The notes below the pieces were generated by a model. The model was not told the origin of the DNA. It ran no database searches and saw only the letters and a list, made by a program, of their open reading frames with translations. This document shows, in pieces, positions 30,547-37,124 of a stretch of DNA of 64,000 bases; positions within the stretch are counted from its first letter, which is position 1; every line of letters starts with the position of its first letter. Source of the DNA: Reinekea marinisedimentorum (lineage in GTDB: Bacteria; Pseudomonadota; Gammaproteobacteria; Pseudomonadales; Natronospirillaceae); contig NZ_SLZR01000005.1 of NCBI RefSeq assembly GCF_004341165.1, forward strand, positions 62,001 to 126,000, in the 5' to 3' direction. Position numbers and translations under genes: made by a program.

Positions 30547-30888
30547 CTATCGAGTCACCCGATTGGCGTAGCGTACTTCGTTTTTAAACTCATACGCCGC
30601 ATCACCAAATTCGTATTCAAAGGCAAAGCGCACAAGTTTGGGGGCGGCACGGCAGAAATCCGGCTCGGTACGGCGCAGTTCAATTTCATCACCACGAACA
30701 ATCAGATAGAAATGCTCAGCCTTGGTACAGCCATGCGACACCACTGAGACCTCAAGCGCGCCGGCATTGATCACTGGGTTGAATAAGACCGGTTCCTCGC
30801 CGGCCTGATCATCGGTCATAGTGGCGCAGCCGGCGTTGACTAAGGCCAGAAGCGGTAGTAATAGCGATATGATTATTTTCTTCGGCAT
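30547..30888 (-). CDS. Small predicted lipoprotein
   Basis: The 113-residue precursor starts MPKKIIISLLLPLLALVNAGC, a signal peptide with a lipobox (NAGC) and likely lipidation at Cys21. The mature part has two further cysteines (SHGCTKAEHF and PDFCRAAPK), which could form a disulfide in the periplasm. A good ribosome site (AAGGAAG) precedes the ATG. It is the last gene of a minus-strand group with two trypsin-like proteases, 36 bases after the permuted one. I do not recognise a family. A link to the proteases is possible but only positional. Confidence 0.78.
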   Translation of the reverse strand: MPKKIIISLLLPLLALVNAGCATMTDDQAGEEPVLFNPVINAGALEVSVVSHGCTKAEHFYLIVRGDEIELRRTEPDFCRAAPKLVRFAFEYEFGDAAYEFKNEVRYANRVTR

Positions 30889-30924: not shown

Positions 30925-31863
30925 TTATTGAGTGTAACCGTGACCAATGACCGTTACGCTATCCTGCACGCCTTCTTCGGCTAATTGTGTAAAGGTGTCG
31001 GTCGATGGCAGAGCGAGGCTAGAATTTTCCGGCATTACTGAAAGTTGGATCAAAGCGATGTCGTTTTGGTAATTATAATCGTCGTAGCTTTCATGTAACG
31101 TCACATCAATTCCGCGGGCAATATAGATGTTGTCGGTGCTACCGGTATAGACGATATAGCCTGTAGCGTTCATTGCATTAGCTTTACTGCTGGTGGTGCA
31201 ATCGATGTCCTCATCTTCATAGCTGCAGACTTCATAGGCCATATCTTCAGAGCTGTTACCAAACACCATGTACAGTGGCTCAAACGCACCCAGATCATCA
31301 ACACAATGAGCTGCTGTGATCACCAGGCCATCACCGAGATAGGTGCCACCACAGAACGGGTAGAAATAGTCCGTATAGGACGGATACCGTGTCATCAGAG
31401 CAACAAAATAGTCATGATCATCGGTAGCTGCATCGCTTCCGCCTATAATTCTGGCCGAGAAGCCTGAGCTTTCAGAGCTGCTGTCTGCAACAGCGTAGGG
31501 TGAAAGCAACGAACTATTGTCAATGATCCAATCAATGTAATTAAATACATTAGTGTACACACCATAAGGCAGGCTTGAATCAGCACAAGGAAACGGGCCC
31601 CAACTGACGATCCCCAGCAAAGTGCCATCGTCTTCATAGAACAGCGGGCCGCCGCTATCGCCACTGCAGGAGTCCTGATTATAATCGCCTGCGCAGATCA
31701 TTGAGTCTTCATAAAAGGAATCACCATAGTAGCTACTGCAAACAGCATCTTGCCGGGGGGTTAGACGAACTTCCTGCAGGTCAGTAGTCAGGCTGTAGGA
31801 TTCACCGCTCGAACATGAGTACATCAGCACCAGAGCAAAAAAAGGTATTAATCGAATATTCAT
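30925..31863 (-). CDS. Circularly permuted trypsin-like serine protease
   Basis: The 312-residue frame is intact but its S1 halves are in reverse order. After a signal or lipoprotein leader ([11 protein letters not shown]) comes the normally C-terminal half: [26 protein letters not shown] with Ser70, GIVSWG, NYIDWI. A Ser-rich linker (about 117-137) follows. The normally N-terminal half comes last: R138-[21 protein letters not shown] with His186, and NDIALIQL with Asp268, ending VIGHGYTQ. Asp64, six residues before the serine, predicts cleavage after Lys/Arg. The paralogue 83 bases upstream has the normal order and aligns well with both halves. Arg138-Ile139 could still be cut to free the Ile that salt-bridges Asp69. 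All catalytic residues and core cysteines are present, so it is probably active rather than a broken gene. Confidence 0.88.
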
Positions 31864-33224: not shown

Positions 33225-36200
33225 TTAACCCAGCCAGGCCCGGGCATTGCGGAACATACGCAGCCAGGCCCCCTCTTCACCCCACTGCTCCGGCTTCCAG
33301 GAGTTAGTCACGGCACGGAACACACGCTCCGGGTGCGGCATCATAATGCTGATGCGGCCATCCGGTGTGGTAAAGCCGTTCATACCCAGCGGCGAGCCGT
33401 TCGGGTTCAGCGGGTACTGCTCGGTTGGTTTGCCATAGTTGTCGGTATAACGCAGCGCCAGCTGACCACTTTGTTTCGCCAGCTGCAGGTGTGCATCGTC
33501 TTTAAACTCGGCACGACCTTCGCCGTGGGCTACAGCCACCGGCATACGCGAACCCGCCATACCCGCCAGCAGGATAGACGGTGATTCAACCACCTCGACC
33601 ATCGCGGTGCGGGCTTCAAACTGCTCAGAAAGGTTACGCACAAAGTGCGGCCAGGCTTCGGTGCCATCAATAATGGAACGCAGGTTGGAGATCATCTGAC
33701 AGCCATTACAAACACCCAGCGCAAAGGTTTTCTCATCCGCAAAGAAGCTTTGGAACTGATCTTTCACGCTCTCGTTGAACAGGATCGATTTCGCCCAGCC
33801 TTCACCAGCACCCAGTACGTCTCCGTACGAGAAGCCACCACAGGCGACCAGCCCGTTGAAGTCACTCAGCTGAGCACGACCGGCGATCAGGTCACTCATG
33901 TGTACGTCAACGGAATCGAAACCTGCACGATCAAAGGCTGCGGCCATTTCGATCTGACCGTTCACACCCTGCTCACGCAGAATGGCCATTTTGGGTTTGG
34001 CTCCGCTGTTGATGAACGGCGCGGCAATATCTTCTTTAACATCGAAGGTTAAGTCGGCATGCAGGCCCGGATCGTTGGCATCCAGCCAGCGGTCGTATTC
34101 CTGCGCGGCACAGTCGGCGTTATCACGCAGCGACTGAATGCGGTAGCTGGTTTCGCTCCACATGCGCAGAACATCAGTACGCGGCTTAACGTAAACCTCA
34201 TCATTTGCAGTCGTGACACGAATGTAGTCATCGTCGTTGAGGTTGCCGATAACCGCCACGCAATCTTCAAGCCCTGCCGCAGAGTATTGCTGCAGTACAT
34301 TCTCGGTTTCTGACTGCGCTACCTGAATCACCGCACCCAGCTCTTCACTGAACAGCGCAGCAATGACGTCATCATCGCTCAGGCGATCGGCACAGATATC
34401 AATACCGGTGCGGCCGGCAAAGGCCATTTCCACCAGCGTGGTGAACAGGCCACCGTCGGAACGGTCGTGGTAGGCCAGTAATTTTTCATCCGCCAGCAAG
34501 CCCTGAGTGACGGCCCAGAAGGCTTTCAGGTCTTCAGCATCATCGACATCCGGCGCAACATCGCCCACTTTACGGTAAACCTGCGCCAGAGCACTGCCGC
34601 CCAATCGATTCTGACCACGGCCAAGGTCGATCAGAATCAGGTCGGTTGCCTCTTCCGTTACTTTCAGCTCTGGAGTCACTGTTTTACGAACATCCAGAAC
34701 CGGCGAACCACCGGAAATAATTAAGCTCAGCGGAGCGGTAACCGCCTTAGTCTTTTTGCCGTCCTGCCAGGTGGTGCGCATCGACATGGAATCTTTACCC
34801 ACTGGAATGGTAAGGCCCAGTTGCGGGCACAATTCCAGGCCAACGGCTTTGACGGTGTCGTACAGGGCTTCGTCTTCGCCCGGATGACCGGCAGCGGCCA
34901 TCCAGTTGGCAGACAAACGCACCTTCTTCATGTCACCAATATAGGTAGAGGCCAGGTTGGTCAGGGTTTCGGCTACCGCCAAACGACCGGATGCCGCCGG
35001 GTTAATCAGCGCGACCGGGGTGCGCTCACCCATGGCCATAGTTTCGCCGGTATAGGAGTGGTAGCCAGAGGTGGTCACAGCGGCATCAGCCACCGGAATC
35101 TGCCATGGGCCAACCATCTGATCACGCGCAACCATGCCGGTAATGGAACGGTCGCCGATAGTAATCAGGAAGCTCTTACTGGCGACAGAAGGCAGGTGCA
35201 TGACGCGATCAACCGCTTCGGTCATATCAATGCCTTTGGTGGTGAACGAATCCACCGGGCGCGGCGTGCGCTCAAATGAACGAGACATCTTAGGCGGCTT
35301 GCCGAGCAGGATATCCAGTGGCATGTCCACAGCGTTGTTATCAAAGTGACGGTCGGTCACTGTTAGCTGCCGGTCATCCGTTGCCGTACCGATAATGGCG
35401 TATGGGCAGCGCTCACGGGCACAGAATTCTTCAAACTGGGCCAGCTTCTCTTCGGTAACGGCAAGAACATAACGCTCCTGCGATTCATTACACCAGACCG
35501 CCAGCGGCGACATGCCCGGCTCATCGTTTGGAATATCGCGCAGCTCAAACTTACCGCCACGGCCACCGTCTGCGACCAATTCCGGGAAGGCATTAGAAAG
35601 ACCACCGGCGCCGACATCGTGAATAAAGGCGATCGGGTTGTCGCTTCCCAGCTCCCAGCAACGGTCGATCACTTCCTGACAGCGGCGCTCCATTTCCGGG
35701 TTACCACGCTGCACGGATGCAAAATCCAGGTCTTCATTGCCTTCGGCGCTGTCCACTGAGGAAGCCGCACCGCCACCTAAGCCGATCTGCATCGCCGGGC
35801 CGCCCAGCACGATCAATTTAGCCCCAACCGGAATGGCATCCCAGGCTTTTTCAATGTGCTCAGCCTTAATGTTGCCATAACCACCGGCAATCATGATTGG
35901 CTTGTGATAACCACGCACTTCGTGACCGTCCTGGCTTGGCACGCTCTGTTCAAAGGTACGGAAGTAGCCAGTCAGGTTTGGCCGGCCGAATTCGTTGTTA
36001 AAGGCCGCGCCGCCCAGTGGGCCATCGATCATAATGTCCAATGCGCTGACAATACGGGCCGGTTTGCCGTAGCTGCTTTCCCAGGGCTGTTCAAAGCCTG
36101 GAATACGCAGGTCAGAAACCGTAAAGCCCGTTAAACCGGCCTTTGGCTTACCGCCGGCACCGGTCGCACCCTCGTCACGGATCTCACCACCGGAGCCCGT

Positions 36201-37124
36201 TGCTGCACCGGCAAATGGCGCAATCGCGGTCGGGTGGTTGTGGGTTTCCACCTTAAACAGGATGTGAATATCTTCTTCGCTGTAGCGATACTGGTGATCA
36301 GAACCGGTATAGAAGCGATCACCCTTAGAGCCTTCAAACACTGCGGCGTTATCTTTATAGGCCGAGAGCACCCCTTCACTGTTGTGGGTGTAGGTGTTTT
36401 TAATCATTTTGAACAGTGACCATTCGGATTGTTCACCGTCGATGGTCCAGTCTGCATTGAAGATTTTGTGACGACAGTGCTCTGAGTTTGCCTGTGCAAA
36501 CATCATCAACTCGCTGTCAGTCGGGTTGCGCTGCAGGCCCTGATAAGCCGTCACCAGATAATCAATTTCGTCTTCGGCCAATGCCAGACCCAGGGTTTTG
36601 TTGGCGCTGACCAGTGCCTCACGGCCTTCACCGAGAATATCAACAGTGGTCAAAGCAGCCGGCTGGTGCTCATCAAACAGGTTTTGCGCTTGCGGCGCGG
36701 CAAAATAAACAGACTCTGTCATCCGGTCGTAGAGCGCGGCCGAGGCAAGCTTGAGCTCACTTTCGTTCAACGGCTGCTGGGCCACAATCCAATAGCGAAT
36801 GCCACGCTCTATGCGGTGAATAAAATCCAGAGCACTGTTGTGTGCAATATCGGTCGCCTTGGTCGCCCAGGGAGAAATTGTCCCGGTACGCGGCGTGACC
36901 CAAACCGAGGCACATTCGTGCTGTTCTGTCTGTTCAGAAGGTCCATAGTGTAAAAGCGCATCCAGAATGGACTGCTCTTGCTCCGTCAATGCCCGGTCTG
37001 CATCAACAAAGTGAACGAATTCTGCGTATACATCGGTTATTGCCGGAAGTATTGCCTGAAGCGAAGCGGTTAGCCTTTGGCGGCGGAAGCGGGATAGTGC
37101 TGGGTTACCTCGAAGCGTGAGCAT
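33225..37124 (-). CDS. purL: Phosphoribosylformylglycinamidine synthase
   Basis: The 1299-residue protein is a full-length large PurL of the gammaproteobacterial type. It has the N-terminal PurS-like region, the two FGAM synthase halves ([50 protein letters not shown], and [10 protein letters not shown]-like [10 protein letters not shown]) and a C-terminal glutaminase domain. The glutaminase has its nucleophile in GVCNGCQM and the His/Glu pair in MPHPERVF. It converts FGAR to FGAM with glutamine and ATP in purine synthesis. It is transcribed alone, divergent from mltF, with a clear terminator after it. Confidence 0.97.

Follow-up and report, generated by a model that had tools for sequence, protein, structure and literature searches.

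A natural circular permutation of a trypsin-like (S1) protease, encoded beside its normal-order paralogue

Few protein families have been studied as closely as the trypsin-like (S1) proteases. Their catalytic residues follow the linear order His-Asp-Ser according to PMC3434108, which states CA distances of 6.4, 8.4 and 9.8 A within the S1 triad. The window analysed here, a stretch of 64,000 nucleotides from Reinekea marinisedimentorum, contains an ATG-started open reading frame whose 312 aa product (P0001) carries these residues in the order Ser70-His186-Asp268. This raises the questions of whether the two halves of an S1 protease have been exchanged by a natural circular permutation, how such a gene could have originated, and whether its product would still be activated as a protease.

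The gene is located on the minus strand, which was absent from an earlier note on this DNA (Table 1). In reading order, P0001 comprises a short hydrophobic signal, the S1 C-half (LQEVRLTP, CAGD, a stretch of 10 residues, SWG and W112), a Ser-rich linker, IIGG at residues 139-142 and the S1 N-half (CGGTYLGDG, TAAHC, NDIALIQL and VIGHG), with the stop three residues further on. The Ser barrel is therefore read first and the His/Asp barrel second. The positions which the earlier note had assigned to Ser70 of GDSGGP, the bond Arg138-Ile139 at IIGG, His186 of AAHC and Asp268 of NDIA were right, as was its Ser-rich linker between the halves. The counterpart of Asp194 is Asp69, and Asp64 presumably corresponds to Asp189, judged from its distance to Ser195.

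Table 1. Features of the permuted protease gene and its neighbourhood (positions in the window)
Feature	Position	Strand	Remark
Small lipoprotein-like gene, syntenic marker	30547..30888	-	beside the protease in 7/7 genus genomes; no Pfam match
Permuted S1 (trypsin-like) protease gene (P0001, 312 aa)	30925..31863	-	
N-terminal signal, residues 1-17 (...LVLMYS-C17)	31813..31863	-	sequence; lipobox-like end by eye
C-terminal (Ser195) beta-barrel, placed first, residues 25-120	31504..31791	-	
Asp64 = Asp189, trypsin-type S1 pocket	31672..31674	-	alignments
Ser70 = Ser195 of GDSGGP	31654..31656	-	
Ser-rich linker, residues 121-138, last Arg138 (P1 of canonical activation bond)	31450..31503	-	pLDDT <50 over 124-149
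IIGG, Ile139 = Ile16, would-be new N-terminus	31438..31449	-	
N-terminal (His57/Asp102) beta-barrel, placed second, residues 139-312	30928..31449	-	
His186 = His57	31306..31308	-	
Asp268 = Asp102	31060..31062	-	
Normal-order S1 paralogue, 371 aa	31947..33062	-	GlyGly-CTERM-like C-terminal tail (by eye)
purL-like gene, syntenic marker on the other side	33225..37124	-	

The adjoining paralogue shows the landmarks of the fold in the usual order (IVGG29-His77-Asp161-Ser264). In BLASTP comparison with this protein, P0001 is matched in two pieces, query residues 22-113 corresponding to subject residues 212-307 (53%, 1e-30) and query residues 124-311 to subject residues 14-204 (51%, 2e-56). This matching of the halves in swapped order is far above chance, and it bears out the separate alignment of each half that had been proposed as a check. 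The cut point is the inter-barrel connector, at approximately residues 205-211 of the paralogue, so that the break falls between the two barrels as previously claimed. The Pfam family Trypsin (PF00089) is detected in the whole P0001 with 1.7e-35 in three stretches, the best of which places profile positions 132-220 at residues 24-113, and positions 3-88 of Trypsin_2 (PF13365) come later, at residues 173-308. Protein P0003 matches PF00089 with 3.6e-27 in two stretches. In both proteins, the best stretch of PF00089 (profile 132/134-220) is located near the N-terminus and the PF13365 stretch (profile 3-88 or 8-88) comes after it. No Pfam family beyond the two trypsin ones was found in P0001.

By homology over both barrels (PF00089), as well as by its His, Asp and Ser residues and the GDSGGP and TAAHC motifs, P0001 belongs to the S1 family (clan PA). 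The His/Asp barrel comes first in the normal-order copies of the genus (six of seven genomes) and in the other S1 proteins read for order. With homologous, collinear halves that are swapped with respect to a homologue, P0001 is both an S1 homologue and a circular permutant, and by linear order it is no regular S1 member. The natural circular permutation proposed in the earlier note is well supported by the reversed halves and by the retention of their order in a second species, and it is apparently undescribed before.

This second species of the genus (G002) was found by searching 57 genomes with P0001, seven of them genus members including the window's own (G000). The same half order, which was to be expected in related genomes if the permutation is real, is present there at the same locus (match of 51% over query residues 20-310). 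The full-length permuted orthologue has 329 aa and is collinear with P0001 from end to end, with an identity of about 46-51% (46% in BLASTP over 326 columns, 50% in a global alignment). Its gene, at L040:7714-8703 on a 2.25 Mb contig, is located between a purL-like and a small lipoprotein gene, and in the window's genome the same two markers flank the permuted and the normal version, which are direct neighbours. The purL-like gene of the window is so named from homology. In G002 no normal-order homologue was detected, the genome giving one match at E<=0.001. Normal-order copies were found in six of the seven genus genomes, and five of the seven have only these. In these five, the protease adjoins the same lipoprotein gene and has a hydrophobic tail that ends in basic residues, and a gene of 116-124 codons adjoins purL in each of them (5/5). 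In G004 and G006, several more genes are interposed at the protease-purL locus.

The permuted gene is under purifying selection. Over the 304 aligned codons of the permuted pair, identity at codon positions 1, 2 and 3 is 0.64, 0.69 and 0.36, respectively; dN is 0.44 by NG86 (dS not computable) and 0.42 by LWL85 with a dS of 2.3, and dS is saturated. Twenty-three columns are invariant in nine normal-order S1 domains, namely the window paralogue and eight from records with titles pointing to five phyla. P0001 keeps 23 of these 23 columns and the G002 protein 22, having lost Gly216.

AlphaFold modelled the permutant (pTM 0.72) as confidently as the paralogue (pTM 0.70). The permutant model was built on a thin alignment (A4) of half-domain rows, some N-half rows of which have misplaced first residues, and has a mean pLDDT of 68.5. 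The low-confidence region comprises the linker and the first residues of IIGG (Table 1). Each half of the permutant matches the corresponding half of chymotrypsin-fold chains, and the paralogue matches whole domains. Foldseek searches with the permutant model gave mostly half-length matches of low TM, which is expected because the aligner depends on chain order. We infer that the two halves re-form a standard two-barrel enzyme. In the paralogue as in both permutants, each half has four of the eight non-signal cysteines (4 + 4), so that every disulfide can form inside one half and no inter-chain disulfide is expected. The parent, likewise without an inter-half disulfide, may thereby have been fit for permutation.

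In the usual S1 switch, the freed amino group of Ile16 bonds to Asp194 after cleavage. Since the counterparts of both residues are kept in both permutants, this switch is the best guess for the permuted protein as well. The linker would serve as an internal propeptide, and a cut before IIGG would free Ile139 (Ile16) to bind Asp69 (Asp194) and thereby turn the enzyme on. The linker is also the only link between the halves, and such a cut would sever it. Two chains would result with no disulfide between them, one with the Ser, which a genuine lipobox would tether to the membrane, and one with His and Asp. Cleavage at Arg138-Ile139 yielding two chains is a plausible prediction from the residues present. 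We consider it likely, though short of assured, that the protein is a natural permutant of the S1 fold with one origin and a two-barrel enzyme switched on by a cut before IIGG.

The activation bond is Arg-Ile in the window protein and Thr-Ile in the G002 orthologue, hence a trypsin-type cut is not conserved. Arg before Ile16 together with Asp189 is present in seven of eight genus proteins, and both are lost in the same one of the eight. This is the G002 protein, with Thr at P1 and a pocket of Gly189/Val190/Thr216, which we take to be nearer to the elastase type. A joint change of P1 and pocket would be predicted for enzymes that activate themselves by cutting this site; as a single event it fits this idea and does not prove it. 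The specificity of the G002 permutant may have shifted from trypsin-like to elastase-like. The window protein has Arg at P1 and Asp at residue 189, as in a self-activating trypsin such as VesB (PMC6219818).

Several other readings of the permuted protein have to be weighed. The least unlikely is activity as a single chain with the linker uncut, the permuted connection or another group ordering the activation pocket. Some S1 enzymes, such as tPA, are active as a single chain, and the activation residue differs between the two species (Arg versus Thr), but IIGG and Asp194, whose known joint role is the salt bridge after cleavage, are kept in both proteins and the window protein keeps the Arg. 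Also unlikely, and ranking just behind, is a permuted but catalytically dead protein (pseudoprotease) with a two-barrel fold, maintained for a role in binding or as a decoy. The G002 protein lacks the Arg activation site, Asp189 and Gly216, and the IIGG region is of low confidence in the uncut model, which would suit a dead enzyme; however, the two proteins, about 50% identical, have both retained His, Asp, Ser, GDSGGP, Ile16 and Asp194, where some loss would be expected. A domain-swapped dimer, in which the C-half of one molecule pairs with the N-half of another so that active sites form between chains, appears improbable. In its favour, the halves are joined only by the low-confidence linker and an inter-half disulfide is not expected, but about 25 flexible residues should, on geometric grounds, allow closure within one molecule. 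Finally, there is a very slim chance that the gene is an assembly error or a functionless leftover of tandem duplication, for although a normal-order copy adjoins, as it would with a leftover, and the assembly is a draft of 62 contigs, another genus member has a full-length orthologue of the same order in the same place, the gene has no stops and is under purifying selection, and in G002 the permutant is the only member detected and hence no by-product of a nearby copy. A misassembly, which would have undone the earlier claim, is very unlikely because the half order recurs in a close relative. As candidates in their own right, a misassembly or chance frame was rejected on the full-length G002 orthologue, and a pseudogene on the conservation by codon position.

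The ends of the preferred two-barrel enzyme differ from those of the normal proteins. P0001 ends with VIGHGYTQ and shows no Gly/Ser-rich stretch, hydrophobic helix and basic end of the GlyGly-CTERM type; the C-terminal membrane tail of the normal proteins is missing in both permutants. No NCBIfam model matched P0001, P0002, P0003 or P0005, though the tail of the paralogue looks GlyGly-CTERM-like by eye. The rhombosortase model TIGR03902 is above its cut-off in five of the seven genus genomes and just below it in G000 and G002, and matches below the cut-off were also obtained in 14 of 14 control genomes. The N-terminal signals end, by eye, in lipobox-like motifs (...LMYS-C17 in P0001, ...LCVS-C18 in G002), an assignment based on the general lipobox pattern, the motif being degenerate and fitting poorly in G002. 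The membrane anchor of the permutants may thus have moved to the N-terminus. The most far-reaching version of the preferred reading would be an active, first natural permuted protease of the chymotrypsin fold, whose propeptide is the sole inter-barrel bond. Activation would convert it into a non-covalent split enzyme, its Ser half anchored in the membrane and its His/Asp half releasable, with the Ile16-Asp194 bridge holding the two together, while the anchor would have moved from the C- to the N-terminus and the activation residue and pocket would have changed together in G002. We advance this complete picture tentatively, its chance being somewhat less than even.

Phylogenetic trees point to the origin of the permutation. 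After rearrangement of the permuted halves to the normal order, a tree of 14 sequences groups the two permutants in a single clade (97/93), which joins the normal copy of the window (100/99). A tree of the N-half only agrees (99/97); the shorter C-half-only tree lacks the permuted pair and places the window's normal copy weakly with the G002 protein (72/61). In a PurL tree, in which two of seven rows are partial, G000 and G002 are sisters (98/98). This grouping of the two permutants next to the normal copy of the window supports one event of duplication, fusion and trimming. The simplest history would be a single permutation in the common ancestor of G000 and G002, after which G002 would have lost its normal-order copy. 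In the BLASTP comparison, the N-half match begins 15 residues ahead of IIGG, and a stretch of 13 residues there resembles FADTSSVSTR of the paralogue. This likeness of the linker to the stretch before the N-half of the paralogue supports a fusion of tandem copies. The route from a tandem pair favoured in the earlier note is thus backed by the adjacent paralogue, the same order in a relative and the sister position of the permuted clade to the paralogue.

The process would have started in the shared ancestor of the two species, where S1 genes encoding a C-terminal membrane tail stood in tandem. The C-half of one copy would have been joined to the N-half of the next via a remnant of the tail and the propeptide of the next copy, the outer halves and the membrane tail would then have disappeared, and the fused protein would have acquired a new export signal at its N-terminus, perhaps that of a lipoprotein. 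DNA comparison of the two window genes gave no source for this signal, only the half-domains aligning well. A separate tandem pair of S1 genes, independent of that in the window, is present in G009 (contig C1, 811346-814157; L036, L012) and its members are sisters (99/99). As G009 thus has its own pair of the same S1 family, such duplication, the opening step of the proposed route, recurs.

Chymotrypsin and other multi-chain S1 enzymes consist of several chains after cleavage, with the Ile16-Asp194 bridge, disulfides holding the chains and the normal half order. In the permutant, by contrast, Ser and His/Asp would sit on separate chains and an inter-chain disulfide is not expected. The best solved relatives by sequence are VesB and VesC of Vibrio cholerae (PDB 4lk4, 6bqm; PMC6219818). 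According to PMC6219818, VesB is an autoactivating S1 zymogen with an Arg-Ile activation bond, attached to the surface by a C-terminal GlyGly-CTERM tail processed by rhombosortase. The normal-order paralogue of the window has, by eye, a similar plan. VesB and VesC have the normal half order and a C-terminal anchor, and activation only removes an N-terminal propeptide, whereas the permutant lacks a tail at the C-terminus and has its activation bond between the barrels.

Natural circular permutation is known from papain-like proteases, where PMC10318531 names PPPDE, permuted groups related to NlpC/P60, and LupA. As described there, these have another fold, are mostly cysteine peptidases and represent whole families, whereas the S1 case is an event traceable at one locus. 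For swaposin and permuted DNA methyltransferases, permutation by duplication is described in PMC3320104, with tandem copies fusing and outer parts being trimmed. These too have other folds, while in the S1 case a gene of the parental type still adjoins the permutant in the window and is missing from one relative, which has lost it. The locus therefore offers a rare, traceable permutation of a fold, with a maintained permutant, an adjacent parental-type gene and a relative whose only detected member is the permutant. It allows one to ask by experiment if trypsin barrels can fold irrespective of their order, and if a zymogen can be activated by a cut that parts its catalytic halves from each other. 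Protein engineering could also use a naturally split trypsin as a switch.

The distribution of the permuted form was surveyed with P0001 in 57 and 22 genomes and with a two-row profile (A1) in 390 and 369 genomes, the draws overlapping; single matches over both halves were obtained only in G000 and G002. A permuted-order profile of 11 rows, nine of them re-ordered normal S1 domains (A5), matched over both halves only in G000 among 398 + 299 genomes of the phylum, four genomes of named loci, and 217, 112 and 115 genomes of three other phyla. In the profile searches at most 5 to 25 candidates per genome were scored, with strict cut-offs of 1e-13 or 1e-15 for A1 and 1e-20 to 1e-38 for A5. The sets of 217 and 115 genomes gave no A5 match of any kind and so show little. 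Two long partial A5 spans from the phylum search (G907, G993) proved on reading to be of normal order. A scan of contigs with P0001 alone yielded no relative and one with A1 yielded 26 loci; by tblastn, the N-half precedes the C-half in all 20 loci having both, and six have the C-half alone. Among these loci, L053 has its halves in different frames, and L046 and L047 have several copies in a row. No permuted S1 protease was found in one scan of viral contigs, and none of the 96 plasmid records matched had one place covering 80% of the query. Within the limits of these searches, the permuted form is carried by two species only. In the open-access literature, with broader queries considered among their best matches, no natural permuted trypsin-like protease was found, in agreement with the earlier note, to which no described natural bacterial S1 permutation of this kind was known. 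PMC12667903 does not mention protease, trypsin, peptidase or serine, and the permuted protein described in PMC8195603 is a transglutaminase-like peptidase, not a trypsin.

Some further observations concern the neighbouring gene and the wider family. The product of the lipoprotein-like gene may assist the protease as a partner or chaperone, or inhibit it. In the five normal-only genomes of the genus (g1), the longest frames of protease and lipoprotein overlap slightly. In all six g4 genomes of the family (L005, L007, L012, L013, L014, L015), a normal-order frame runs from GDSGGP through a GlyGly-CTERM-like tail into the lipoprotein without a stop, as if both were one polyprotein or the lipoprotein started inside the protease frame. 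An S1 homologue in G016 (contig C6 near 79353; L014) has one in-frame TAG, which the search match crosses. In Glycomyces niveus (L046, 2578-5232), three S1 copies, each of normal order (N-C, N-C, N-C), follow one another in two frames, an array that could yield permutants.
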